Below, in pieces: positions 1,898 to 62,055 of a stretch of 64,000 nucleotides of DNA. Source of the DNA: Tetracentron sinense (Eukaryota > Streptophyta > Magnoliopsida > Trochodendrales > Trochodendraceae); assembly GCA_015143295.1 (NCBI GenBank), contig CM026551.1, positions 14,681,827 to 14,745,826 on the forward strand, read 5' to 3'. Numbering within the stretch: the first letter of the stretch is position 1; every line of letters begins with the position of its first letter. The position numbers and the translations under genes are program-made. Under the pieces are notes generated by a model that worked only from the letters and a program-made list of their open reading frames with translations, was not told the DNA's origin and did no database searches.

Positions 1898-4800
1898 TTT
1901 CTACTTGAAATAAGAAATTGAGAAGAATAGTTTTTTTATTCTCTTCAACATTCTAGATCCTACAATCAAGCATACAACTATAATCTACAGGATAGGAAAG
2001 AGTCATCTACAAGATAGGAAAGAATCACAAGAGAAAAAAAGAGAAAGAATCAAATCGCAACACTCTCCCTCAAGTTGGTGCATAGATATCACACATGCCC
2101 AACTTGTCCAAAAACTTCGAGAACACTCGACTTGGAACTGCTTTGGTGAAAATATCGGCCAACTGATCCTCTGATCGAATCTGTGGCAACTCCACAATCT
2201 TCTCATCCAACTTCTCCTTTATGAAGAATCTGTCTACCTCCACATGCTTTGTACGATCATGTTGAACCGGATTGTGAGCAATATCACAGGCTGCTTTATT
2301 GTCACAATATAGCTGACTTTGCTGCCTAGGTAGACAGCCCAAATCTCGTAGAAGAAGTCTTAGCCACAACGCCTCACATACTCCAAGTACCATACCTCTA
2401 AACTCAGCCTTTGCACTTGATCGTGCAACAACATTCTGCTTTTTGCTTCTCCATGTAACAAGATTACCTCCTACAAAAGTGAAATAGCCTGAAGTAGAAC
2501 GCCTGTCATCTATTGCTCCAGCCCAGTCAGCATCGGTATATGCATCCACACTTCGATAATCCTCATTTTTAGTGAACAAAATTCCTTTTCCAGGGGCAGA
2601 CTTCAGATATCTCAAAATGCGCAAAACTGCATTCATATGTTGCTCTCTAGGATTATGCATAAACTGGCTAACAATACTCAATGCATAGGCAAGGTCTGGC
2701 CTTGTGTGTGCTAAGTACATCAGTCTTCCTACGAGTCTCTGGTATCTTCCTTTATCAACTGGCACCTGATTAGACTCGATACATAACTTCAATCCTTCTT
2801 TCACTGGTGTATCAGTTGGTTGACATGCTGACATACCAGTTTCCCATAACAAGTCTAAGGCATACTTTCTTTGAGACAGAAAGATCCCTATATCATATCG
2901 AGACACTTCAATACCAAGGAAATATTTCAAGGAGCCGAGGTCTTTCATTTCGAATTCGCTGGACAAGTAACCTTGTAGAACCTTCCTTTCTTCAGGATCA
3001 TTTCCTGTAACCACCATGTCATCCACATACACAATAAGTGCAGTAATCTTACCCTGCTGTTTCTTCAAGAATAAAGTGTGGTATGAATTGCTCTGACAGT
3101 AACCAAAGGCTCGCGTAGACTTTGTGAATCTTCCAAACCACGCCCTCGAAAATTGTTTCAACCCATACAGTGATTTCTGTAATCGGCACACCTTTCGACT
3201 ATGTATTTCTGGTATCATGCATCCGGGTGGAAGTTCTATGTAGACTTCTTCGGACAACTCTCCATGTAAAAAAGCATTTTTTACATCAAACTGTTGTAAT
3301 GGCGAACCCAAGTTCGCAGCTCGAGATAACAAGACTCGTATTGTGTTGATTTTAGCTACAGGTGCAAATGTCTCTGTATAATTGATCCCATAGGTTTGAG
3401 TGTACCCTTTTGCCACTAGTCTCGCCTTAAAGCGTTCAATTGTACCATCTGCTTTGTACTTCACAGTATAAACCCACCGACATCCAACTGGTTTCTTTCC
3501 TGTTGGACGGTCAACAAGTTCTCAGGTTTTATTTTCCTGCAATGATTTCATCTCCTCATTCATAGCAGCTTTCCACCTTGAGTCAGCTAAGGCTTCCTGC
3601 ACATTGTTAGGAATAGATACAGTAGATAATTGATTTAAAAATGACTGATTTGATTCTGACAAACGATGGTTAGACACATAATGATTCATGAGATATTTAA
3701 CTTTACTACAAAGTTCGGGTTCATATGTGGGTTTAGGGATACCTTTGGTGAGACGCTGTGGTAGCTGTTTTCTAGATGGTTCAGGAACATCCTCAGCAAG
3801 CGAATGGTTTGGTGTATCAGTTGCCTGTGGTGTGATGGACTCTGACTGAGGTGGAGTCACAACTTCAGTTTCTGGGTGTTCATCACTACTTTCATCCAAT
3901 TCTCCCACTTCTTGATTAATAGGTTCAGGGAGTTCCCTTTCTTCAGAGATATGAACATCCACATCTTCAGAGAGTTCATCATCATAGTCTAGAGTCTGAA
4001 TTTCATTCTGGTACTCCCCCTGAAGTTCAGGCTCAGCGGAAAAATACATTGATTCTTCCTGAAAAACTACATCTAATGTAATAAACATTCGTTGGTTGGA
4101 GGATGATAGCATCGGTACCCCTTTTGATAAGTAGCATATCCTAGAAAGACACATCGCAACGCTCAAGGAGATAACTTGTTGCGCTGATGCTTATGGAGAT
4201 GTACGAATGCTACACAACCAAAGATGTGAGGAGGTAAATTTGGGACAGTTGGAGCAACAATCGCCTCAGCAAGAGCTTGGGAGGGTGTCTGGAAATCAAT
4301 AGTGCTGGAGGGTACCCGATTGATCAAATATGCTGCCGAGGTAAGTGCTTCGTCCCAATAGGACAACAGCATATGGGCTTCTATCAATGAAGCACGGACA
4401 ACCTCCAACAAGTGACGATTTTTTCTCTCAGCCACCCCATTCTGCTGAGGTGTATTGGAACAAGTAGTTTGATGAATAGTTCCGTTTCCTTTCAGATACT
4501 GCTAAAGTTCAGAACTCAAATATTCGCCTCCATTATCACTATGGAGAATTTGAACCTGTGTATTGTACTGAGTGTGAACCATTGTATAAAATTTTTGAAA
4601 TAACAAGTTCACTTCACCTTTAGATTTCATCAAGCTCACCCAAGTCATCCTTGTACAATTGTCAATAAAAGTAACAAACCAACGTGATCTACCTAAGGTA
4701 GTGACCTTGGACGGATCCCAAACATCAGAATGTATGATCATAAAAGGAACTGGACTCTTATTCAAAGTTAATGGAAAAGAAACACGATGACTTTTTGCAA

Positions 4801-6604
4801 GTTCACAAACTTCACACCGGAAACTAGAAACATCAAATTTTGCAAATAATCTAGGAAATAATTTCTTCAGGTAGCCAAAGGAAGCATGCCCCAGATGTCG
4901 ATGCTATAACCAGATTTTCTGCTTCTCTCCCTCAGATCCATTCACCGTTAGAGCTTGATGTAGCTTGTCCGAACTCTTTGACACCAAGTCCAAGTAATAC
5001 AACTTCCCTCGCCTAACACCACAACCAATCGTTTGCCTCGTCTGGATGTCCTTAAACACACAATAATCAGGCCACAAAATTATAACACAGAGTAAAGCAG
5101 TGGTGATTTGGGAAACTGACAACAAATCATAATCCAAAGATGGAACGACTAAAACGGAATCTAGATTCAAAGTATCAATGAGAGGTAAGGGTCCTTCTCC
5201 AATAATTGGGGCCGAAGAGCCATTGGCAGTGGAAACAAATTTTTGTGAGGACGATTTAAGGGGTAAGACCTGTCTAGAATCAAATGTCATATGATCCATA
5301 ACACCGGAATCAATTATCCATGTACTATTAGAAACAAGTGTGGACATATTTAAGACCTTATCACCACTACCTGCCGCTGCTGCTAATGCCGTGAGTTGTC
5401 CAGCAACATCATCCGATGTCTTTGTTTCAACAACTGTAGCACTGGAGGTCTTCTTGGAATTCCTCTTCCGTGAGTCGCGGCTATGATCCCACCATTCTAG
5501 ATACCCCACAAGCTCAAAGCAATGACTTTTGGTATGACCAGTTTGATTGCAATGAGTGCATTTTTAGGTGGATTTATCGGCACCATTAGTGGTTTTAGGC
5601 TGGCCTTGAGAAGGCCGATTCTGATTAGACCGATAACGAGTCACCGTGGCTGAAGCTTCAGTCTTTTCTGGTTCTTCAATCATCGTTGCGCGTCAGATAG
5701 ATTCACGGCGGACCAATGCATAACATGCTTCTAATTCGGGAATAGGATCCTTTCTCAAAATTTCACCACGGACTTGTTCGAATTCACCATCTAATCCAGC
5801 AAGAAAAATATGCACCATTTGTCGCTGAACTGATTTTCAGTAAGATTCAACATCTTTCTCACTCTCCATGATCACCTTATCACGATGATCCAACTCACCA
5901 AAAATCTCAGTTAATTCTCCATAATACATAGAGAGTGTTCTGTCATTCTGTTTAGCAGAGAAAGCCCTCTGATTCAAGACAAACACCTGCAATTCATCTG
6001 CTCCATCATAAAAAGCTTTAGAAAGAGCTTTCCAAATATCTCGAGCGGTGGGTAGGCGAATGTGTCGCTTCATAATTTCTGGGGACATAGATAGCAACAG
6101 CTATCTCTTGACTTTTTGATTGTCTGCATACCACTTCTCATGCTTATCATCCTTCTCAGACGGAGGCTGAGAACTATCACGAATGAAAGAGAGTTTCTCC
6201 TTCTCAGCAATATGCATCTCCATGATTTGAGACCACAAATCATAGTTTGTTTCATCGAGTACAATCCCTGCCTTGAACAATGAACCTTCAGATTGAATAA
6301 TAATGGGAGCAGATTTGGAAACGTTTGGGACCAAATTTGTATCAGCCATGGTTCAATGAAGGGAACGGATTCAAGCTTCAAAGCTCTGATACCAACTTGA
6401 AATAAGAAATTGAGAAGAATAGTTTTTTTACTTTCTTCAGCATTACAATGTGTCTATAGGTACATATATTGATGGTTCAACATTCTAGATCCTACAATCA
6501 AGCATACAGCTATAATCTACAGGATAGGAAAGAGTCATCTACAAGATAGGAAAAAATCACAAGAGAAAAAAAGGGAAAGAATCAAACCAAATCGCAACAT
6601 TTCT
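1898..6604 (-). mobile_element. Ty1/copia LTR retrotransposon, full length but dead
   Basis: LTRs lie at 1903-2062 (160 bp, with a deletion of about 45 bp) and 6395-6599 (205 bp). Read on the minus strand each starts TGTTGCGATTTG. A 5-bp target duplication TTTCT flanks the element (1898-1902 and 6600-6604). The primer binding site, minus strand TGGTATCAGAGC, abuts the 5' LTR at 6383-6394 and fits initiator Met-tRNA. A purine tract (TTGAGGGAGAG, minus strand) sits at 2063-2073 next to the 3' LTR. The internal region encodes the copia order gag, protease, integrase, RT, RNase H. It inserted into the (CAC)n-core TIR element. Confidence 0.93.
2070..6349 (-). pseudogene. Copia gag-pol polyprotein, disrupted
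   Basis: Minus-strand reading frames in copia order: gag from an ATG at 6349; a CCHC knuckle (CTHCNQTGHTKSHC) near 5555, just upstream of the 5509-4904 frame; a protease motif reading DSGV instead of DSGA near 5310; an integrase core with HSDNGGEY near 4520 and AERKNR near 4425; reverse transcriptase with YVDDM near 3020; and RNase H with YTDADWAG and SSAKAEF. Frames are broken between 6100 and 5837, at about 5570-5510, about 4900-4765, 4502-4435 and 3522-3464, so no complete polyprotein is made. The RT/RNase H part is a single open frame of 464 codons, suggesting fairly recent death. This is plant retrotransposon machinery, not a host gene. Confidence 0.9.
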
Positions 6605-10046: not shown

Positions 10047-11740
10047 ATGGAGAACCATGCAAGAGGAAGAGGAAGAGGAAGACACAATCAAAATCAAGGA
10101 AATCAGTTGGGTTACCGACCGGATTCCGGCGTTGGTCGGAGTTCCGGGCAAGTACCCAATTCGAGTGACGCTCAGTTTAGCAGACCCACGAGGCCGAATT
10201 CCGGCGGGGGGTCAACAAGTGGGAGTTCCAGCGGAGGAAGTTGGAGGGGTTCCGGCCGAGGACAACCTTTTGCTCCAGTTCCGTCACAGAGACCTGAATC
10301 GGTTTCTGGTAAGTATCTGAAAGTTTGTTATATATATATATATATATATTGAGCCATGACCACGCACGAGATCGATCTTTCTTTCTTTTGTGTTTCGTTT
10401 GAATGTTTGGTTTCGGTCGGGTGTGATAATATGGTATTTGAAAATGATAATACGAGAAAATTCAAGCCTCGAACATGCTTGTAAAATGGGACATTTTTCT
10501 TATACAGGTCCTTCTAGTTCTAGTTCTAGTTCTAGTTCTTCCGGGCAGCAAAGAGTTCCAGTAAAACGACCCGACAATGGTGGAAAACAGGGCACCAAAA
10601 ATATTCGCCTTCTGGTAAATCACTTTCTCTCCAATTTCGACTCCAAATCAACCATACTACACTACGACGTCGACATTAAACCAGAGGAACCACCCAAGCA
10701 TGGTCGAACAGTACAGATATCTAAGTCCGACATGTGTATGATCAGAGACAAGTTATTTTCTGATGAGCCTGAAAAGTTTCCTATGTCCATGACTGCCTAC
10801 GACAAGGAGAAAAACATTTTCAGCGCTGTAGAGCTACCCACTGGGACATTCAGGGTGGAACTGGAACTGTCCGGCGGAGAGGGCATCAAGACTCGCACAT
10901 ACATATTTATAATAAATCTTGTGAAAGAGATAGAGCTTTGGAAGTTGGAGGCTTACTTAAATGGGAACCTGTCGCCGATCCCCCGCGACGTATTACAAGG
11001 GATGGATTTGGTCATGAAAGAGAACCCAAGTAGACACCGGATTCCGATCCACGGGAGCTTTTACTCCAAAGAATACAATAACCATGATGATCTCGGCTGT
11101 GGTCTCATAGCTTCTAGAGGGATTAAACATAGCCTGAAGCCCACTTCCCAGCGTCTTGCACTGTGTGTGGACTACTCAGTTTTGCCATTTCGGAAGCCAG
11201 TCCCAGTACTAGAATTCCTTCAACAACACTTATACAGGTTTAATCCCGATCGTTTCGATGACCGGATGTGGAAAGATTTTGAGGATGCTTTGAAAGGATT
11301 GAGAGTGACAGTGAATCACCGGCAAACCAGATCCAAAAATACAATCACGGGGTTAACTAATCGCGGCTCCAGCAATCTGAAGTTCACCATGGAAGATCTA
11401 GAGGGTAAAAATCCGCCGAGGGAGGTTGGACTTGTAGATTATTTCAGGGACAAATATAAGAAGGAGATTAGGTACAAGGGCCTTCCTTGTTTGGATTTTA
11501 GTAAGGGTAAGAGAATTAATTATGTACCTATGGAGTTCTGTGAGTTGGTTGAGGGGCAGAGATTTCCAAAGGAGCTTTTGGGTAAGGATAAACATGTAGC
11601 TCGGAAATTCAAGGACATTGCTTTGGCAAAGCCATGGGAAAGAATGAAGCAGATACAGGATATGGTGCAAGCAAGCGATGGGCCTCTTGGGTACGTAAAT
11701 ATTCATCCTCATTTTTTCTTTTTTGTGTGTGCGCGCGCGC

Positions 11741-11777
<37 letters not shown>

Positions 11778-14700
11778 TCTGCTGATGAACTTTTAATCAT
11801 TTCATGGAAGTTCTTTATATGGAATATTGTTTAATTATGACCAATTAATCACCTAATATAATGAACTTTGGCCGGAATACCCCTCCACTCCCGCTTTCAA
11901 ACCTCGCTCTCACGGTTTGAGAGCAGATTCGCCGCGGGACGCGATTTCCTACTTCGTAGAGCGCGATTTCCTATTTCTTAAAGTGTTCGTAGAGCTTGGT
12001 GTTATAAAGCTTAATCTTGTGATCTGATCGCCGTGAGTTTTCCCACTGTAAATTTGAACTGAACAAGGAAGAAGATGAAGTATACGGTTTTTGCAAAGTT
12101 GTATACAAATTTTCATCTTTACCCTTAATGTGTAAACGCATAAGGGTGTGTTCGGTTGAGGGGTAAATGGGTGGGAGAAAGTAAAGTAAAATGAAAGAAT
12201 TATATAAATTCTCTTGTGTGTTTAGTTTGAGAGAAAAAGTTTAGGGAAAAGTATAATTTTTTCCAAAATTACCCTTTGCTCTCTTTAGAAGTAGGGTTCA
12301 ACAAAAGGATAGATTTGGAATTGGAAGTTTTTACTTTACTTTCTTTCACAATTCCAGCTTTTTGGTAGAATAAGGTTTAGGTGAAAGTGAGAGAAAGTTG
12401 TACACTATTGAGAAAGTTCAAGTTTTACTTTACCTCAAAATCCGTCAAATCGAACAGGGTGAAAGTGGGAATGTAAAGGAAAGTGAGTGAAAGTGGGAGA
12501 GGAAAGTGGGTGAAAGTGGGAGTTTCTCCCACTTTCACCCTGTTCGGTTTGAGGGATTTTGAGGTAAAGTAAAACTTGAACTTTCTCAATAGTGTCTAAC
12601 TTTTTCTCACTTTCACCCAAACCTTATTCCACCAAAAAGCTGGAATTGCGAAAGAAAGTAAAGTAAAAGCTACCAATTCCAAATCTACCGTTTTGTTGAA
12701 CCCTAGTCTTAAAGAGAGCAAATGGTAATTTTGGAAAAATTTATATTTTCCTCTAAACTTTTATCTCAAACCAAACACACAAGAGAATTTATACAATTCT
12801 TTCATTTTACTTTACTTCACTTCACTTTACTTTCTCCCACCCATTTACCCCTCAACCGAACACACCCTAAGGGAAAAGTCAAGAGTCTTCAAATTTCTTT
12901 TCTTACTTTTTTTTTTATAATGTCAGTTCTTTTTGTACAATATCAATTTGTGTCAGTGATCAAGTCATTTCAATTTTTTTATTACTTAACTTATTTTTAT
13001 CTTTTTTCTTGGTACATATCACTCTTTTATCATTTTGAATTTATTCTAACTATGAGATCACATCCAATTGGAACCCGAGTTCAATCGCACTTAATGACCA
13101 ATATTTATCTTTTAAAATTCTTATTAACCGTGGTTAAAATTCAGTAATCTTTAAATTTTTTAATATAATTTTGATTTTTAAAAAATATTAAAATATTATT
13201 TATATATACGGCGCTCCCGACCTTATCCTAAATTGAAATATGACGCTCTCGCTCCCGCTCCCGCTCCCGCTCCATGCTCTGGTTACTTAGCTTTGGCATA
13301 GAAGAATCTTCCATGAGATGCATTAGAATGTCGGTTCTTTCTCTTGCTATTTGATTATACGGACTCTAGGCCATATTTGGGGATGATTTCAGATCATTCC
13401 ATTTTAGAGTGAATGTAGTCCCAAGTATTAATATTGTGCTCAATATCTGAGTGTTTACTTCATCAATTCTTGACAGAGGAGAAATTGCTAAGAATTTCGG
13501 AATTATAGTCGATCCCAAGATGACACAAGTGATTGGACGCATTATCCAAGCGCCCGATTTGAAAATTCGGGAATGCAATGGTAATTTGAGTAAATTCACA
13601 CTCAAAAGGGATGACGGGCAGTGGAACCTCGTTGATAGATGGGTGTTGGAAGGGAAGCAGATCGATAGGTGGGGAATCCTAGACTTCAGTTCATCCGACC
13701 GGGACAACAAATTGAATCCCAACCAATTCATTCAAAAGCTTATCACTCGGTGTGGTAAACTCGGGATCAACATGAAGCTACCTCTCTTTTGCAATTCATC
13801 TCATATGGACATTTTCTCCCACCCTGTTCCACTTCGCGGTACACTCCAAAAAATTTACGACTATACCGAAAAGACTGCCGGTGGGCGGCTACAGGTTCTT
13901 ATTTGTGTCATGGCTAGGGAGGATCCTGGCTACAATGTTCTCAAGTGGATTTGTGAGACTGAAATTGGGATAATGACACAATGCTGTCTGAGCGACAATG
14001 CCAACAATGCCAATGATCAGTTCCTTGCAAATCTCGGCCTCAGCATCAATGCTAAGCTTGGTGGCAGCAATTTTGAGCTCTTCCATCCGCTCCCTGGATT
14101 CAGTGGCAATGACCATGTCATGTTTATAGGGGCTGATGTCAATCATCCCGGCGCTCGGAACACGACGTGTCCGTCAATTGCAGCCGTTGTTGCCACCATA
14201 AATTGGCCTGCTGCAAATAAATATGCATCTCGTATTCGGCCGCAGGACCATGGGGCCGAGAAGATTCAAAATTTCGGGGAAATGTGTTTGGAGCTTCTCA
14301 ACACATATGCCCGACTCAACAAAGTCAAGCCAGAGAAAATTGTGGTGTTTCGTGATGGAGTCAGTGATGGCCAATTTGAAATGGTTCTCAATGAAGAGTT
14401 AGCAGATCTCAAGAGGGCGATTGAGTCGGACGAGTACTCCCCAACCATCACACTTATCGTAGCACAGAAGCGGCACCTGACCCGTCTCTTCCCTGACCCT
14501 AAAGATGGGCAAGGAGACAAGAACGGTAATGTGATGCCAGGGACTGTTGTGGACACAACAATCGTGCACCATTACGAGTTTGATTTCTATCTTTGTAGCC
14601 ACTATGGGAGCATTGGCACCAGCAAGCCGACTCACTACCATGTACTCTTGGACGACCACTGCTTTAGTTCTGACCAGTTGCAGACGGTCATATACAACCT

Positions 14701-14896
14701 GTGCTACACCTTTGCTGGATGCACTAAACCAGTCTCATTGGTCCCACCTGTGTACTATGCAGACCTTGCTGCATATAGAGGGCGGCAATACTACGAGGCA
14801 CTCATGGAATCTTCTTCGCCATCGTCTTCTTCATTTGATGATGGTAAGTTCTGCAAGCTGCATAGTGATCTTGAAAACCTTATGTATTTCTTATGA
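10047..14896 (+). CDS. AGO2-like: Argonaute, AGO2/AGO3 clade, copy 1
   Basis: Small-RNA-guided slicer/effector. Exons 10047-10308, 10508-11690 and 13477-14896 join with frame kept (GTAAGT/ACAG and GTACGT/ACAG junctions) to 954 aa. Order: Arg-Gly-rich N-terminus (1-87, including HARGRGRGR), Ser10 run (90-99), N domain from about 120, L1, PAZ about 310-440, MID from about 480, PIWI about 620-930. Catalytic residues: Asp702 in FIGADVNHP, Asp775 in FRDGVSD, and His in KPTHYHVL, so a DDH slicer is possible. Clade evidence: the GPLGGEIAKNFGI junction, VPPVYYADLAAYRGRQYYEA and a short C-terminal tail match AGO2/AGO3, as does the three-exon layout. AGO2 is known in antiviral silencing and DNA repair. 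ATG at 10047 gives MENHARGRG, as in copy 2. Intron 2 (1786 bp) carries a 724-bp MITE. No stops or frameshifts seen. Confidence 0.95.
10511..10541 (+). repeat. (TCTAGT)n hexamer run coding poly-Ser
   Basis: The first bases of exon 2 repeat TCTAGT four to five times, coding ten serines. Copy 2 has only TCTAGTTCT (three serines) followed by a Gln-rich insert. Replication slippage in a coding microsatellite is the simple reading. Confidence 0.8.
11728..11777. repeat. Compound dinucleotide microsatellite (GC)n(TA)n(CA)n
   Basis: GTGTGTGCGCGCGCGC is followed by (TA)9 and (CA)9, just inside intron 2 of AGO copy 1. Copy 2 has no such run at the same place. A shorter (TA)n run lies in intron 1 at 10330-10350. 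Confidence 0.9.
12141..12870. mobile_element. 724-bp inverted-repeat MITE, Tourist-like, in AGO copy 1 intron 2
   Basis: Element 12144-12867 is flanked by TAA on both sides (12141-12143, 12868-12870). Ends are GGGTGTGTTCGGTTGAGGGG and its complement. The arms run almost to the centre (about 12500-12530, GTGGGAGTTTCTCCCAC), making a foldback of roughly 350 bp per arm. No transposase. TAA target plus GGG-type ends fit PIF/Harbinger-derived Tourist MITEs. Transcription through the intron would give a long hairpin RNA. Confidence 0.88.
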
Positions 14897-15440
14897 AGAT
14901 TCAGAAATGGGGTACCAGACTAAGCAGTCGAACTCTCCTTGTCTATGCGGGTATTGTGCGTGAATCTGTCGGGTTATATGTCTTTTTTTTTTTTTCCTTT
15001 TTTTGTTTTGGAATATAGTTATATATCTAGTTTGTGTTGTGTAATTTCCTCTCAAATTGTCTGTTCTGAATTGTCATAGATGTTAGAACCCATCTTGTAG
15101 TGGTCCGGTCAGACCTATTTACTGTTCTGTTTTGGCAAAGTGATGCTGATATGATGAAGTATTTTATGCTATATAAAGTTTGTTTAGACCAACTCTTTTT
15201 TTTTCTTCTTCTTCTTATTCTGGTATAAGGCTTCATCTATTATCTATTAGTAGTAGTTAGAGTACTAGTGGTCTGGGTATTTCATCCCAGTGTAGCCTCT
15301 TCGGCCCTGGGTGCAGAGGCCTAAGTTCTCCGGAACAGTCTTTTGCTGGCTTATTGTGATGAATGGAGGTAGCAAACAGTTTTTGAGGCGTTACACAAAT
15401 GCTTGAATCTGCTGTATTCGCTTCAGGAATTTAATGGGAG
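14897..15440 (+). other. 3' UTR and downstream duplicated flank, arm 1
   Basis: GGAATATAGTTATA, CTCAAATTGTCTGTT, AGTGGTCCGGTCAGA, TATTTACTGTT, AGTTTGTTTAGA and CAGTCTTTTGCTGGCTTATT all recur in order after copy 2 (29580-29890). Similarity fades after about 15400 (29970 in arm 2), giving the right edge of the segmental duplication. Confidence 0.75.
14949..14969 (+). promoter_or_regulatory. Degenerate miR403-type target in AGO copy 1 3' UTR
   Basis: The 14-base core TTGTGCGTGAATCT of the miR403 target is kept, but by my alignment positions 1, 3, 4, 5, 20 and 21 of the 21-base site differ, leaving 15 matches. It starts 53 bases after the stop. The mismatches at 20-21 sit opposite the 5' end of the miRNA, so cleavage is probably weaker than for copy 2. 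Confidence 0.7.
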
Positions 15441-23210: not shown

Positions 23211-26200
23211 ATGGAGAACCATGCGAGAGAGAGAGGAAACCCTAGAGGAAGAGGAAGGCCCAATCAGAACCGAGGAAACCCTAGCTTTCAACAGCGGGGT
23301 TACCGACCGGTTTCCGGCCAAAGTGGGAGCTCCGGGCAAGTACCATATTCGGGTGAAGGTCAGTCTGGTTACCGACCAGTTTCCGGTCAAGGTCGGGGCT
23401 CCGGGCATTTACCCAATTGGGGTGACGCTCAGTCTGGTTACCGACCAGTTTCCGGCCAAGGTCGGAGCTCCGGGCAAGTACCCTATTCGGGTGAAGGTCA
23501 GTCTGGTTACCGACCAGTTTCCGGTCAAGGTCGGGGCTCCGGGCAATTACCCAATTGGGGTGACGCTCAGTCTGGTTACCGACCAGTTTCCGGCCAAGGT
23601 CGGAGCTCCGGGCAAGTGCCCCATTCCGGTGAAGGTCAGTCTGGTTACCGACCAGTTTCCGGTCAAGGTCGGGGCTCCGGGCAATTACCCATTTGGGGTG
23701 ACGCTCAGTCTGGTCACCGACCAGTTTCCGGCCAAGGTCGGACCTCCGGGCAAGTACCCCATTCCGGTGAAGGTCAGTTTGCCAGACCCACGTGGCCGAA
23801 TTCTGGCGGAGGGTCAACAAGTGCGAGTTCTAGTGGAGGAAATTTGAGGGGTTCTGGCCAAGCTAGTGGAGGACAAATTTATGTCCCAGTTCCGCCACAG
23901 AGATCTGAATCGGTTTCTGGTAAGAATTTGAAAGTTTGTTTTTGAGCCATGAAAATGAGATATTTCTTTCGTTTTCGTTTGAATGTTTGGGTTTGTTGTG
24001 AATTTATGATCCACTATGTTGGTAAGAGGAAGCTACTTTTAATGGCAATTCCCAGTTTTTGAAAATGATAATATGGTTAATTCGAGAAAACTCGCCTTTA
24101 TAACTTGCTTGTAGCATCATAGAATAGTTTTTCTATATTGATGATACCAAATTCGAGTTTGCAACTTCTATTTCTTTTCTTTTTTTAGCTTTTTTATCTT
24201 CTTATTTTCGGATCCAAAATGGGAGACATCCAATATATTCTCAATTTTTAAAAAAGAAGAGCTCCAGTTTCTTATTTGGCATAAACATTCATGTAGTTTG
24301 CAGAAGTACCATTTGAGAATCAGGGGTTGTAATGTTTAGGCAATAAATTTGTAAGAAGCTCAAAAGGCCCCCTAAGTTTATGATCTATAATGTGGACAAG
24401 GTTTTGATATGACTAATTATATGGTAGACTAAAGAGGACATTTTAGTTGCTTATGAACATGTTTACTGTAGGCAATCTTACCGGGTTTGCAAATTGTTAA
24501 TATTCTTATACACAGGTCCTTCTAGTTCTGGACAACAGTCGCAGGAAATTTCACAGCAGTTGCCGGGGCCACCATCACTTCCTCAAAGAGTTCCAATGAA
24601 ACGACCTGACAATGGTGGGAAACAGGCCACCAAACGTCCCCGTGTTCTTGTCAATCACTTTCTTGCCAATTTCAACCCGGATTCAACCATACTCCAGTAT
24701 GACGTCGAAATTAAACCAGAGGTACCACCCAAGCATGGTCGAACAGTACAGATATCTAAGTCCGATATGTGTATGATCAAAGACAAGTTATTTTCTGATG
24801 AGCCGAGGCGGTTTCCTAAGTCCCGGACTGCCTACGACAAGGAGAAAAACATTTTCAGCGCAGTGGAGCTACCCACTGGGACATTCAGGGTGGAACTGTC
24901 TAGGGGGGAGAATGCCAAGACTCGCACATACATATTTACTATAAAGCTTGTAAAAGAGATAGATCTTCGCAGGTTGGCGGCCTATTTAAATGGGAACCTA
25001 TCATCGATCCCCCGCGACATATTACAAGGAATGGATTTAGTCATGAAGGAGAACCCAACTAAGCACCGGTTCTCAATCCACGGGTGCTTTTACTCCAAAG
25101 AATACCAGGGTGAAGATGATCTTGGCAGGGGTCTCTTTGCTTCTAGAGGGTTTAAACATAAACTGAAGACCACTTCCCAGGGTCTAGCACTATGTGTGGA
25201 CTACTCAGTTTTGGCATTTAGGAAGAGCATCCCAATACTAGAATTTCTTGAACAACACTTATACAAGTTTAATAAGGATCGTATTGATTACCAGACGAGG
25301 AAAGATTTTATGGCTACTTTGAAAGGATTGAAAGTGACAGTGACTCACCGGCAAACCAAGCAGAAATATACAATCATGGGGTTAACTGAACTCGACTCAA
25401 GCAATCTGAAGTTCACCATGGAAGATCCAGAGGGTAAGAATCCGCCGAGGGAGGTTGGACTAGTACATTATTTCAGGGAAAAGTACAAGAAGGAGATTAG
25501 GTACAAGGGTCTTCCTTGCTTGGATTTTAGCAAGGGTGAGAGAATGAACTTTGTACCTATGGAGTTTTGTGAGTTGGTTGAGGGGCAGGGATTTCCCAAG
25601 GATCTTTTGGATAAGGATAGAGAAGTAGCTCGGAAATTCAAGGACATTGCTTTGGCAAAGCCATGGAAAAGAAGGAAGGTGATACAAGATATGGTGCATG
25701 CAAGTGATGGGCCTCGTGGGTACGTAAATATACAACTTCAGTTTTTCCTTTTTTATGTATCAAGAATTTTCTGTTGCTGTGCCTTTTAGTGTCCCATTTG
25801 CTACCCAATTTGTCAGGATCAGTTGACAAGAATGGTTGCATGATAATGCTGGGTCAATTTAAAATGTGGTTTCCATCATCCATGATCACCTTCTATTCAT
25901 GATTGGACGATGCTCCCGGGGCAATAACCATAGGATAAAGTTTGTTAGGGGAAACACTTGAACAGGTGATGGTCAACTATCCTGGTAATAGAGCACATGG
26001 TGTACATGGAGGGAGGATGGAACTCACCATTCTAGGGTCTTTCAACTCCCTTTTTTTTTTCTCTACACAGTTTTTTTCTCTTTGGGAATTCCCATTTCAA
26101 TTCTTAGTTCAAAAGACATATATTGATGGTTGCAGTAGTCCAGTCGGTTCAGTTTCTTACACAGATCGTCCTAGGTAATACCCATTAAATGCCCATTGCC

Positions 26201-29200
26201 ACATAATCACATGGAGCATGTGCCATTTTGTGCTAGTGCAAGGATGGTAGACCTTTAGTATCCACCATGTGTGCCAGTTGTGGAATTTTGGTTGAAAATG
26301 TTAGTCTTGATTGGTTTACACACATAAATTGTATCCTAAATTTTGGCAACATCATACATGAAAATGTTCGACAGAAGTTAGAAGAATTTTCAAATTGTGA
26401 TGGAAACTTTAGTAGGAACTTGATGGAAAATAATAATACAGATGAAACCCAACATTTCATAGACCCACAGACTCTGCCATGCCTAAAGTTACCTGATTAG
26501 ATGATCATAGCCATTTCAATATGTAGACGTTTTTTAGCTGCCAAAATGATTTTTTACATGCATGTACACTTTTTTTTTTTTGGAAGGTAAGCTAGGGTTA
26601 GGCAGATCCCTACCAGAGAAACACAGGCGGGAATCGATCCCAGGTCCCTGGTATGACACCAAGGGACTTTACCAACTAAACAAGTTGGCATGTACACTAT
26701 ACTCTGCCAAGTCATGCATCAAACTTAATGTGGTTTTCGTGCATGGATACACCATAGAACATGGTGGGTTCAGAAAGAAGAATAGTGATCTGAAGGTAAG
26801 ATCACTACGGCTCCGTTTGGTTGCACTTCCGTTTTCTGTTTTTAAAAACAAAAATTTGGAAATTTTTACACAAAACATGTTTGGTAAACATGTTTCTGTT
26901 TTTGGTTTTTTAACAATTAATAGTAAAATTTTTAAAAATCAAGGTAATAGAAATTTTTTGTTACCTCTGTTTTTGGAAACAAAAAACAAAAACGAACCAC
27001 TATACACCACCACACTAACACCATCACTACTCCACCACCAACACCACCACCACCACTCACCACCACCCACCACCCACCACCACAACAACTCCACCACCAC
27101 CAACACCACTCAACCACCACCACCCATCACCACCACCCACCACCACTCACCACCACCACCCACCACCACTCACTACCACTCACCACCACCACTCCACCAC
27201 TCGCCACCACCACAACCACTCCACCACCAATGCCACCAACACCACTCAACCACCACCCATCACCACCACTCCACCACCCACCACCACTCACCACCACCAC
27301 CCCACCACCACTCACTACCACTCACCACCACCACCACTCCACCACCAACCCCACCAACCACCACCACCACAACCACTCCACCAATGCCACCAACCACTAC
27401 CAATATCATCACCATCACCACCACAATCACCATCACTATGGATTAGAATTGCTTACTCATTATTATATTCATCATATTTTCCAAACACGTTTTTATGTTT
27501 TTTATTTTTTAAAAACAAGTAACAGTTAGTAATGCCAAACATATTTTCTACTTGAAAATTTTGAAAACAGAAACTTATTTTCAGTTTTAAAAAACAGAAA
27601 ACAAAAACAGAAAAACGGAAGTGTATCCAAACGGCCCCTACATTTGTATGAATTCTTAGCTCTTGCTTATTTGGGACGTGCGCTATTGATTGATCAAGTC
27701 GAGATTGATGATGGATGAGCCACGTGTTTGGTGTGTCCATGCTTGTATACCACTTCTTTTAAGCAGTTCAGAAGGTGTATATCTGATCGAATGTTTATGA
27801 CCAATCGGCAATCACCTGATATAATGAACTTTGGCATAGAAGAATATGCTATGGGATGCATTAGAATGTCAGTTCTTTCTCTTACCATTGGTTATAGCGA
27901 CTCTAGGCCATATTTGGGTTTCAGATCATTCCATTTTATAGTGTTTTTGAGAAAATAATTGTATGTAGACCAAGTATTTGCTCAATATCTGAGAGTTTAC
28001 TTTATCAACTCTTGACAGAGGAGAAATTGCTGAGAATTTCGGAATAACAGTTGACACCAATATGACAGAAGTGACGGGACGTATTATCCCACTACCCAAT
28101 TTGAAGGTTAGCGAATGCAATGGCAGGCCGGGTAAATTAACACCCAAAAATAATGACGGCCAGTGGAACCTCCTTGAGAAATCGGTGTTGGATGGGAAGC
28201 AGATCGAGCGGTGGGCAATCCTTGACTTCAGTTCATCCGACAGGTACAACAAATTGAATCCTGACCAATTCATTCCAAAGCTTATCACTCGGTGTGATAA
28301 ACTCAAGATCAACATGCAGCAGCCTCTATTTTACAAGTCTGACATGAGAATTCTCTCCCATCCTGTTCGGCTTCGTAGTCTACTCAGAGATATTTATAAT
28401 CGTGCGGAGGGGCGGTTACAGATTCTTATCTGTGTGATGACTAAGAAGGATCCTGGCTACAAGACTCTCAAGTTGATTTGTGAGACTGAAATTGGGATCA
28501 TAACACAGTGTTGTCTGAGCATCAATGCCAACAAGGCCAATGATCAGTTCCTTGCAAATCTCGCTCTCAAGATCAATGCTAAGCTTGGCGGCAGCAATTT
28601 TGAGCTCTACGACCCACTCCCCCGCTTCAGTGGCAATGGCCATGTCATGTTTATAGGGGCTGACGTCAATCATCCCGGCGCTTGGAACACGACGTGTCCG
28701 TCAATTGCAGCCGTTGTTGCGACCATAAATTGGCCTGCTGCAAATAAATATGCATCTCGTATTCGGCCGCAGGACCATAGGGCCGAGAAGATTCAAAATT
28801 TCGGGGAAATGTGTTTGGAGCTTCTCAACACATATGCCCGACTCAACAAAGTCAAGCCAGAGAAAATTGTGGTGTTTCGTGATGGAGTCAGTGATGGCCA
28901 ATTTGATATGGTTTTGAATGAAGAGTTAACAGATCTCAAAAGGGCGATTGAGTCAGACGGGTACTCCCCAACGATCACACTCATAGTAGCACAGAAGCGG
29001 CACCTGACTCGTCTCTTCCCTGACCCTAATGAGAGGCAAGGGGACAAGAGCGGTAATGTGATGCCAGGGACGGTTGTGGACACAACAATTGTGCACCCTT
29101 ACGAGTTTGATTTTTATCTATGTAGCCATTATGGGGGCCTCGGTACAAGCAAGCCGACTCACTACCACGTACTCTCGGACGACCATGCAGTTAGTTCTGA

Positions 29201-29477
29201 CCAGTTGCAGACGGTTATATACAACTTGTGCTACACCTTTGCTCGATGCACTAAACCAGTGTCATTGGTCCCACCGGTGTACTATGCAGACCTTGCTGCA
29301 TATAGAGGGCGGCAATATTATGAGGCGCTGATGGATGGGTGTTCCCCTGCTTCAGTGGAATCTTCTTTATCTTCTATGACATTGTCTTCTTCACCATCAA
29401 CTTCTGTATCATCTTACGATGATGGCAGGTTCTACAAGCTGCATAGCAATCTTGAAAACGCTATGTTCTTTTGCTGA
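23211..29477 (+). CDS. AGO2-like: Argonaute, AGO2/AGO3 clade, copy 2 with expanded N-terminal repeats
   Basis: Exons 23211-23919, 24516-25719 and 28019-29477 join in frame (same phases as copy 1) to 1123 aa. The N-terminus starts MENHARERGNPRGRGRPNQN, then seven 23-residue repeats (30-190), then a Gly/Ser-rich stretch. N, PAZ, MID and PIWI follow as in copy 1. Catalytic Asp853 (FIGADVNHP), Asp926 (FRDGVSD) and the KPTHYHVL His give DDH. The tail has a Ser-rich insert (SSLSSMTLSSSPS) before YKLHSNLENAMFFC, closer to the AGO2 C-terminus than copy 1. Arg-Gly N-termini of AGO2 are known arginine-methylation and partner-binding regions. Intron 2 (2299 bp) holds a SINE and the intact (CAC)n TIR element. 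The 3' UTR has a near-perfect miR403 site. No disablement seen. Confidence 0.95.
23298..23780 (+). repeat. Seven in-frame 69-bp units in A-B alternation (138-bp higher-order repeat)
   Basis: Residues 30-190 are seven 23-residue units. A-type units run GYRPVSGQGRSSGQVPYSGEGQS-like (units 1, 3, 5, 7) and B-type run with GRGSGQLPNWGDAQS (units 2, 4, 6). Similarity is highest between units two apart, so the array probably grew as A+B pairs of 138 bp. Copy 1 has a single unit (GYRPDSGVGRSSGQVPNSSDAQF, nt 10110-10178). Each B unit carries a Trp-Gly pair. Confidence 0.93.
26560..26698 (-). mobile_element. tRNA-derived SINE with perfect target duplication
   Basis: A perfect 11-bp target duplication GCATGTACACT (26560-26570 and 26688-26698) brackets the element. 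On the minus strand it has an A-box-like TTTAGTTGGTAAAG, a B-box GGGATCGATTCCC and a poly(A) tail (T-run 26571-26581). Length without target is 117 bp. It lies antisense in intron 2 of AGO copy 2. Confidence 0.85.
26809..27650. mobile_element. TIR element with (CAC)n core, copy B (intact)
   Basis: Ends GGCTCCGTTTGG..CACTTCCGTTTTCTG and CAGAAAAACGGAAGTG..CCAAACGGCCCC are inverse; TAC flanks both sides, a possible 3-bp target. Subterminal parts are built from TTTTTAAAAACA words in both orientations. The core 27001-27440 is a CAC/CCA tract of about 440 bp. No transposase. It sits inside intron 2 of AGO copy 2 in sense to the gene as (CAC)n. Confidence 0.75.
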
Positions 29478-29970
29478 AGAAGAGTTAACTTCAGCCAGGT
29501 CCAATCTCCTTATCTATACAGGGTAGGTGAAGTTATCTTTTTTCTAACTTGGATAGTGAAGGAGTTTGTGCGTGAATCTAATATAGTTCTTATTCTTTTG
29601 GAATATAGTTATAGATGGAGTCTGTGTTGTGTTATTTGCTCTCAAATTGTCTGTTTTAAGTGGTCATGGTTATTAGAACCTATTAGTAGTGGTCCGGTCA
29701 GAGCTATTTACTGTTATGTTTTGCTAAGTACCAGTGTACTATTGATATGATGATGGATTTTATGCTATTAGAAGTTTGTTTAGAGCAGCTCTTTGTTCTT
29801 CTTCCTTTTTTCACCTGGTTTAAGGCATCATCTAATCTGTGCAGAGAGGCCCAAGCTCTCCGGGACAGTCTTTTGCTGGCTTATTATAATGGGTGCTCTG
29901 TATTTCATTCTTGAAGGGGATAACAAAATTCTCTGGAGTTGCAGAAGAGAAGCCTTATTCCAGGATAGCA
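29478..29970 (+). other. 3' UTR and duplicated downstream flank, arm 2
   Basis: Aligns with 14897-15440 (words listed there). The last shared words, CAGTCTTTTGCTGGCTTATTAT at 29864-29886 and GATAGCAAACA near 29965, give the right edge of the duplication. Confidence 0.75.
29561..29581 (+). promoter_or_regulatory. miR403 target site in AGO copy 2 3' UTR
   Basis: GGAGTTTGTGCGTGAATCTA plus a final A. It pairs with the known miR403 (starting UUAGAUUCACGCACAAAC) at 20 of 21 positions; only the first target base, opposite the miRNA 3' end, differs. It lies 84 bases after the stop, which fits the known miR403 site in AGO2 3' UTRs of eudicots. Confidence 0.9.
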
Positions 29971-59200: not shown

Positions 59201-62055
59201 CACTCGAACCGGTCCTCTTTAGGACCGGGTTTGTGTGTTACTCTAGATTCGCAGAAAAGTCAATTTAAGGATTAAAATTCAAGAACATGTGATTTGCTTA
59301 CCTGACTGGGACCCACTTATTAGCCAAACAAGACCTCAAGAATTCTTTCCCAGGGAAAAAAAAAAAGTGACGGAAAATATCAGGTAGAGGAAGCCGGACG
59401 GAACAAACAATCTGTGGCGTCCATTGGATGGAACTGGCGGATCCGCTTTTCTAACCCGTGGGTCCCAGATGATCCTCCCATTAGAATCGTGCGTTAACTG
59501 ACTTAAACCCCATAAAAATTGATCATTGATCGGGTACACCGTATTATAATACTTCAAGCTTGACTAGTGTGTGAAACATGACATATGCAAAGTGTAATGC
59601 TAATGGAAGCTGTCCGTATGATGGGGTCCATCAGCTTTTGAAAAAATGAGTTCAAACAAGGGTTAGGGATATTTTCAAGGTTGATGGGGCCCAGCAAAAC
59701 CCTAATCCTTGGGATACGATGTTTTCACGTGCATGATTTTCCTTTTATTTTATACAAAAATGTTTTTCCGCATCCATTAATCACTTGAATGTATTAGCAA
59801 ATATTTGAGAATCAAGTTGATCAAGTGGATGAAATTTGTCGATGACCAGAACTTCAGATATATGCGTTGGATATGTAATTGACGAGACTTCAGATACATT
59901 GATCAAGCCTTCGTTACATGTCAGATATTTAATTGAATTCGAATAGTTGGATATGTATTCAGATACAAATCTGAATGTCTATACCACTGTCTGCTTCAAA
60001 CTCACTTCCTTTACACTTCTAATCATAAGAGAATCAAGTTGTCAAAATTTGAGAATTTTGCTTAATCACCAAAACCCTAATAAATTGATTATTATGGGCA
60101 TATTAAAAGATGTTAAGTATTCCCTCTTATACTGAGTAGTGCAAGCTTCTAGAAGTTCAGAGAGAATTCAAACTATCCTAGAAATAGTATTATCATATCC
60201 CTTGCATATGGGAGGGAGGCTTGGATATTCTTCAAAAAATATTTTTTTAAAAAAAGGGATTCTCATTTTTGTTTGATTATCTTATTCTATTATTAAAGTT
60301 GTGTTTTTTAAGTGGCCATATCTCCAGGGATTTAACCCAATATTTCAACAAGAAATGGGATTGATCAAGTGGATGAAATTTGTTGACGACGACACTGATC
60401 AACGGATGTGTGGTCATCAAACATAGGAAATGGATCAAGCACTCATTTCAATTGTATAGTTGTCATGCACTATATCTCACCCATCTAAAACTTATTTTTG
60501 AGAAAATGAAGAGGTAATTGCATTAAGACAATATAGTGGGTTTGGTTGCGAAGATAAAAACAAACGAAAGTATGAGGACAAGAGGAGAGATCGACTTGGC
60601 ATTGGATAATATTCATGAAGCTCTTAACGTTTTATATATAGTTTTATTCTCTCTTTTTTTTTCTCCTCCTCTCATTTCTCGATGCGCTCTCTCTCGTCTT
60701 ATTCTCTGACGGTTGCTCTCCTTTTTACCCGGTTCAACCCGGTCTGGAATCACAGTTTCCGGCCTAGTTTTGGAGAATATATTTCTATTATAAAATTAGC
60801 CCCCATATAATAATGAAAAAGACATTGCAGTTATATCTTTTTTTTTTATCAAATAGAGCCAAATCCTTGACGGGCATCTACTTTGTCACAATTCTCCTCG
60901 ACACTAATGCTACCAAAAAAAAAAAAACATTCAATTACCGACTTTGTAACTTTTTTTTTTCTGGTTGTAAATAGCCACCCCAAACATAACGCGGCTAATA
61001 ATAATAAATTTTTTTTTCCCTTTCATAGGCAATGGTAAGTTGGTTAGTTAGCCAATAGTATAGGCGAGTGGATCGCACGCTTCCACAGTACCCTAAGACA
61101 ATTTTCAAATTTATTTTATAGTTTTTTCCTTCTAGAAATCAATCCTAGGATTTTTATTTTTTATTTTTTTGGTTGAAATCCTAGGATTCACAATGAGTGA
61201 GCAGTAACAATGAGTGTTATCCATGTTTTATCTGTTTTGATGTTTTGTAGTTTTCTTCATCCAAAACCTTGGTTCTAAAGATTAAGAAGAGGAGCTCCAC
61301 TTCAAAGCATTTGAGGGAGCTCAATTTTTTCAGTATAAACCCATGGCAGTTTTGTAATTGTCAAGGAGATCTTTGCGTGCATATATAGGTGTTGCTAATC
61401 TTTACTATGTTAGTGAACTTAGTAATCATCGTGTTGCTATTTGCATTGTATTATCCGATTGAAATGAGAAGGGTTGATTTTAAGTTGGCATTAGTGAAAA
61501 TGTATATGTAATTTTATTTTTCTCTTCTTAGTTTCTTTTAGGCACTAGCCCTAGTTGAGTCCCAAGAAAACAAATATTTCTCAGTGGTAGGCATTTCCTT
61601 CACTACTACTCATGGTTTGGTGAAATCCTAGTTTCGTTCCTACCCCGAAATCCAAATGTTTGTTAGTTCAGAATTGTAGATTTCGGCCGAGATATTGGAA
61701 ATATCATATGAAACTTTGGAATTTTGAAATTTAATAAATATGATTTTAAATAGTTTTTTTTATTAAAATTTTGAAATATTTCAATTTTTTTTTCGACATT
61801 TCGCAAAAATTTGGAAATTTCGATATTTTTTGTTATAAAAATAAAATAATAATATTTATATAAATATATTAAATTTTAATAAAATATCATTTCTCAACAT
61901 TTTGGATCGATATTATACAAAATTTCGGTAAATATTGGAAATATATATAAAATAAATAAAATTTCAAGATTTTGTTGAGAGAACCGAAATTTTTGAAATT
62001 TCTGTTCGGGTCGAGGGACCGAAATTGTCGAGGTAATCCGGATTTCAAACCATAC
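59201..62055. other. Intergenic DNA, no supported gene
   Basis: A short direct duplication GATCAAGTGGATGAAATTTGT occurs at 59819 and 60363. 61670-62050 is a degenerate ATTTCGG/AAATTTCGA repeat with an AT-rich core, MITE-like debris. No ORF of interest. Confidence 0.5.

Follow-up and report, generated by a model that had tools for sequence, protein, structure and literature searches.

The window analysed here, a stretch of DNA 64,000 nucleotides in length, carries what its sequence identifies as two intact AGO2/3-type Argonaute genes in tandem, and the plant encodes miR403. The reading favoured here, with moderate confidence, is that copy 2 would be controlled by miR403, that copy 1 would be recognised less efficiently, and that the copies would differ in how sensitive they are to miR403 dose and not in whether they belong to the circuit. 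The conserved site of copy 2 and the behaviour of the same module in other species suggest that this copy is most likely sliced by AGO1 loaded with miR403. In copy 1, a 40-nt deletion appears to have taken the five 5′ bases of the site and two bases at the other end have been changed, which would leave positions 3-16 of the miRNA paired and position 2 in a wobble; this copy is most likely still recognised at reduced efficiency.

Both genes lie on the plus strand. Copy 1 (10047-14896) comprises coding exons 10047-10308, 10508-11690 and 13477-14896 and encodes 954 amino acids; copy 2 (23211-29477) comprises coding exons 23211-23919, 24516-25719 and 28019-29477 and encodes 1123. In each the frame is open throughout with no internal stops, the exon joins bear canonical GT/AG ends, and ArgoN, PAZ and Piwi domains are found; the two proteins are 78% identical (739/947), with a Ks of 0.30 between the genes. 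The family assignment draws on comparison with the MID domains of 4g0m ('Protein argonaute 2'), 4g0o (AGO5) and AGO1, all of which we take to be plant proteins. The MID domain of copy 2 matches 4g0m best (127 bits), followed by 4g0o (73.9) and three AGO1 MIDs (54-56), and that of copy 1 matches 4g0m at 125.6 bits the only short plant MID among its matches listed at E ≤ 1e-20. The MID domain of an Argonaute gene on contig C23, by comparison, is non-discriminating (71.5 for AGO2, 59.5 for AGO5 and 69.7-71.0 for AGO1). Both copies also share an Asp-Asp-Asp set (GADVNHPG, FRDGVSDGQF and YYADLAAYRGR) with Asp replacing the His of Asp-Asp-His, the last Asp (YYAD) aligning opposite the His of YYAH in 4ola (argonaute-2), presumably a catalytic position. 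A DDD triad is described as possible in AGO2/3 (PMC3707012).

Several repeats were observed in and around the pair. In the N-terminal exon of copy 2, a 69-base unit encoding Gly/Arg-rich repeats recurs head to tail 7.0 times (23298-23778), in an array that also shows a 138-base period with 96% matches; for exon 1 of copy 1 the repeat search reported no such array. A long inverted repeat in intron 2 of copy 1 (12143-12868), whose arms measure 236, 89 and 53 nt and are 84-96% complementary, resembles a hairpin-shaped mobile element, and intron 2 of copy 2 carries a long CAC-type simple repeat (27005-27436). On the minus strand, 2070-5509 contains fragments of the polyprotein of a retrotransposon (RVT_2, Pol_BBD).

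The predicted miR403 target site of copy 2 lies in the 3′ UTR at 29561-29581 on the plus strand, beginning 84 bases past the stop codon, which ends at 29477. The letters are those of the original prediction, GGAGTTTGTGCGTGAATCTAA, a 20/21 match to the miR403 complement whose sole mismatch is opposite miRNA position 21, and cleavage is predicted between 29571 and 29572. This is the only match with three or fewer mismatches on both strands of the window, where 0.01 would be expected by chance. A pairing-penalty scan of the window placed copy 2 (0) and copy 1 (4.5) as the best two sites, with the third place at 59226 scoring 6.0, and in the 3′ UTR of neither copy did any of 2000 shuffled miRNAs score as well as the real one (0/2000 in each). 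The miR403 letters used agree with those given in PMC4300679 and PMC9916703. In Table 3 of the latter, the miR403 target of three Brassica napus AGO2 genes is given as GGAGUUUGUGCGUGAAUCUAA, and the copy 2 site equals all 21 nucleotides of these sites, the position-21 mismatch included; because of this identity, copy 2 probably keeps the ancestral site. For constraint on the copy 2 site, the identity with Brassica is stronger evidence than the within-pair statistics, which prove it for neither copy and where the chance of an untouched 21-nt site, counting substitutions only, is 0.258 at the distal UTR rate, 0.057 at the fourfold rate and 0.05 at the Ks rate.

The source of the miRNA was sought across the whole genome (1.16 Gb, 1479 contigs). 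Eight places lie within two mismatches of miR403, compared to three for a reversed control; six of these are both arms of three hairpins, on contigs C14, C8 and C259; of the remaining two, one is the copy 2 site and one an isolated sequence on C24. The three hairpins score above the Rfam MIR403 cut-off (RF00842) with 83.3, 79.5 and 75 bits, respectively, and the C24 sequence falls below it; the MIR403 hairpin at L001 1405-1531 is on the minus strand. As C259 and C8 are 96.9% identical over 3 kb, C259 is probably a duplicate contig of C8. No further MIR403 place was found among the 54 of 107009 first-look candidates scored in the RF00842 scan. The mature forms are UUAGAUUCACGCACAAACUCG (C14) and UUAGAUUCACGCACAAAUUCG (C8 and C259), which differ at position 18. 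Copy 2 and copy 1 incur penalties of 0 and 4.5, respectively, with the C14 form and of 0.5 and 4.5 with the C8 form, and duplex energies with the C14 form reach 98% and 82% of perfect pairing. The three loci thus supply the check proposed in the original prediction, that MIR403 be found in the same genome and its pairing scored: both mature forms fit copy 2 better, and the genomic miR403 better matched to copy 1 that would have spoken against the prediction was not found, the penalty of copy 1 being 4.5 for either form. A private miRNA for copy 1 was also considered and rejected on match counts, the complement of its site matching itself and nine places genome-wide, all with three mismatches, compared to 13 for the reversed control. 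Separately, C24:28895062-28895082 (L034 4063-4083) is another 20/21 miR403 complement, with a penalty of 2; it is seemingly intronic to an opposite-strand gene that is transportin-like by eye, and none of the 44 Argonaute matches in the genome lies on this contig.

The trimmed candidate site of copy 1 occupies 14949-14969 on the plus strand. As originally claimed, it keeps a 14-base core: 14954-14967, pairing with miR403 positions 3-16, is identical to the core of copy 2, and this 14-mer, TTGTGCGTGAATCT, occurs twice in the window (14954-14967 and 29566-29579) where 0.00 occurrences are expected. Pairing is perfect at positions 3-16 and present at 20, positions 2 and 19 are G:U wobbles, and positions 1 (U:U), 17, 18 and 21 are unpaired. 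The six mismatches originally counted are accordingly all non-Watson-Crick positions, but two of them are wobbles and the one at position 21 is common to copy 2; mismatches proper number three in positions 1-20 and four in positions 1-21. Any cut in copy 1 is predicted between 14959 and 14960. A penalty of 4 is a frequent cut-off, and copy 1, in the scheme used here, is above it. Site accessibility predicted by folding ranked the two sites inconsistently, copy 2 being more open at a folding window of 80 and copy 1 at 150 and 200.

The manner in which copy 1 lost part of its site can be traced closely. A 40-nt stretch present in copy 2 (29526-29565, plus strand), which holds the first five bases of the site, is absent from copy 1, such that the right edge of the gap falls five bases inside the site, and excising 29526-29565 from copy 2 yields the copy 1 junction exactly, GGGTA followed directly by TTGTGCGTGAATCT. 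The correspondence of the two cores follows from the shared 14-mer, and several alignment settings disagree with it: the cores are opposed in 3/5 pairwise settings but not in the other 2/5, in default MAFFT, or in 3/3 MAFFT runs with the C17 gene added. The 'aligned position' of the original prediction is to be corrected in that the 40-nt gap enters the site. Polarity is provided by an AGO2-type gene on contig C17, a fair outgroup because its distances to the two copies are nearly alike (Ks 0.647 for copy 1 and 0.665 for copy 2, compared to 0.286 between the copies). The UTR of this gene aligns with TTCTAACTTGGATAGTGAAG of copy 2, with TAGTGAAG identical, just ahead of its own decayed site, and since TAGTGAAG is shared, the 40-nt stretch would have been lost in copy 1 rather than gained in copy 2. 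The change in copy 1 is most simply the derived one, chiefly a 40-nt deletion. Together, the Brassica identity, the deletion junction and the C17 comparison uphold the core of the original prediction, that the site was kept in copy 2 and lost in part in copy 1.

The C17 gene is open over three exons and has 990 codons, the stop included; over shared codons its identity is 63-64%. Its aligned site, at L029 5186, is decayed, with a penalty of 11.5; this position was homologous in 2/3 MAFFT settings and 3/3 pairwise settings, and a better-scoring place at L029 5281 (7.0) was dropped as the C17 site, L029 5186 being the alignment-homologous position. Among the stronger of the 44 genome matches are three open AGO2-type genes and two remnants, and an intact miR403 site is present in only one of the three open genes. 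The remnants, on C11 (L050 4408-4856) and C1416 (L051 2818-6904), were candidates for further AGO2-type copies on short matches of 60-69% (two and three rows) and were set aside as truncated; they reach at most 86% identity to copy 2 over 71 aa, and that on C1416 is interrupted by more than 3 kb and retains a C-terminal piece. No site better than 8.5 (C11) or 9 (C1416) was found in the stretches scanned. Identity drops to 46-48% in the next long matches, which lie on C18, C23 (repeated on C1443) and C4. They form a second Argonaute group (L030, L031, L032 and L033) of two C18 genes, C23 and C4, which appears to be AGO7-like; C18a, C23 and C4 are 84-89% alike, and the second C18 copy has its PIWI match in two parts, with a stop.

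Both tandem genes are constrained and evolve at similar rates. The Ka/Ks between the copies is 0.44, and with C17 as the outgroup their unique changes are evenly divided, at 57 against 51 amino acids, or 160 against 148 nucleotides; the idea of copy 1 as a decaying pseudogene is rejected on its intact frame and on a count of unique changes similar to that of copy 2. Past the site, the 3′ UTRs (15006-15225 and 29596-29829) are 88% identical (186/211), and their distance of 0.129 is lower than that of fourfold sites (0.272). The PIWI core is near-identical, with a Ks of 0.026 over codons 720-780 and a 127-nt identical run; this is suggestive of gene conversion, a reading set aside because the longest stretch over which fourfold sites are identical (14195-14417 and 28722-28944) is not significant by permutation (1381/20000).

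A site weakened in this manner might still be without consequence. If promoters set the expression of the pair, or if copy 1 is barely expressed, the trimmed site could represent neutral drift, an alternative that is compatible with weakening and is possible, if unlikely. Similarity upstream of the two start codons ends after about 230 bases, so that promoters may split the pair regardless of the miRNA, and in tomato the AGO2b transcript was undetected by RT-PCR and AGO2a was virus-induced (PMC10177002, section 9). Survival of the 14-nt core is likewise no greater than chance: counting substitutions only, the probability of an untouched core is 0.405 at the distal UTR rate, 0.149 at the fourfold rate and 0.135 at the Ks rate, values compatible with no selection at all. 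Against this, the coding sequences are both intact and constrained, and copy 1 is thus not an abandoned gene.

The stronger claim of the original prediction, an escape of one copy from miR403, would leave one gene repressed and the other wholly uncut and free. A penalty of 4.5, with four true mismatches over 21 positions including an adjacent pair at 17-18, lends this some weight, as does the decayed C17 site, which shows that this genome can bear the loss of a site altogether. However, the 14 contiguous pairs of copy 1 span the cut position, and its duplex energy ratio of 0.82 exceeds the 0.75 inferred for conserved miRNAs by PAREameters (PMC7049721). The limits drawn from degradome data in the same source permit scores of 4.0-5.0, at most three mismatches and at most two wobbles, the top permitted score over eight degradome sets being 4.5 in 5/8, 5.0 in 2/8 and 4.0 in 1/8, although these scores may follow another scheme than the penalties used here (PMC7049721). 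By its letters, the copy 1 site would sit at the edge of common target limits. Full escape is rather unlikely on this evidence and is unsupported as originally worded, the seed (with its wobble at position 2), the centre and the 3′ supplementary pairs all surviving.

As described for AGO1 RISC in vitro, binding requires the seed and positions 13-16, the tail is dispensable, and central pairing is still required for function (PMC11194062). The three open AGO2-type genes could be arranged as a graded series, with the site intact in copy 2, tail-less with its core in copy 1 and lost in C17, but that copy 1 has been tuned in this way, its RISC-essential core held by selection, is doubtful; were it true, the three sites would amount to nature's own in vivo experiment on the dispensability of tail pairing in plants. 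Least probable of the alternatives, and improbable outright, is that copy 1 is cut about as well as copy 2 with no practical difference between them: tail mismatches did leave AGO1 RISC binding unaffected in vitro, but copy 1 also has the position-2 wobble and a U in place of the A opposite position 1, where A binds better than U, and seed dinucleotide mismatches lowered AGO1 binding more than tenfold (PMC11194062). The position-2 wobble and the lost pair at position 1 could matter more than assumed, given the statement of Liu et al., quoted secondhand in PMC7049721, that efficacy is clearly lowered by one 5′ mismatch. Since copy 1 has lost the tail and the position-1 A and kept the remaining pairing, 'weakened' describes its site better than 'escaped', and a putatively weakened site is the reading supported here.

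Under the favoured reading of unequal dose sensitivity, the biological interest of the pair lies in antiviral defence. AGO2 has been proposed as a second antiviral layer, released when a virus blocks AGO1, its repressor through miR403 (PMC3031535), and a less repressed copy might keep this layer at a higher level at rest. The trimmed site is in addition a testable case for how much pairing plant miRNA sites need.

The arrangement in copy 2 is that of the miR403-AGO2 module known from Arabidopsis, Salvia, grapevine, Brassica and tomato, in which the same miRNA addresses a site in the AGO2 3′ UTR; in Salvia the SmAGO2 site is backed by 5′-RACE (PMC3750313). Targeting of AGO3 is confined to Arabidopsis species according to section 9 of one survey (PMC4300679). 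Tomato offers a close parallel, in that SlAGO2a and SlAGO2b form a tandem AGO2 pair (PMC10177002) like copies 1 and 2. Among tomato AGOs, miR403 complementarity is reported only in SlAGO2A, with 9/9 5′-RACE clones cut (PMC3847217), although the Figure 5 legend of that source names SlAGO2B where its text names SlAGO2A, and these names may not correspond to those of PMC10177002. The tomato AGO2b of PMC10177002 also carries the warning that a missing site need not mean higher expression. Unequal targeting is likewise predicted for the AGO2 paralogs of B. napus, as for the pair described here, 3/4 genes being predicted targets with BnaAGO2-2 the exception (PMC9916703). More broadly, the vast majority of A. 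thaliana duplicates that bear miRNA sites differ in them (PMC5322543); miR403, AGO2, AGO3 and argonaute are absent from the main text of that report. Unequal miR403 sites between AGO2 paralogs are therefore already reported in tomato and rapeseed. Unlike the other eudicot modules, the present one joins an intact and a trimmed predicted site in a tandem pair, and its fresh elements are the exact deletion and the grading of the sites into a series.
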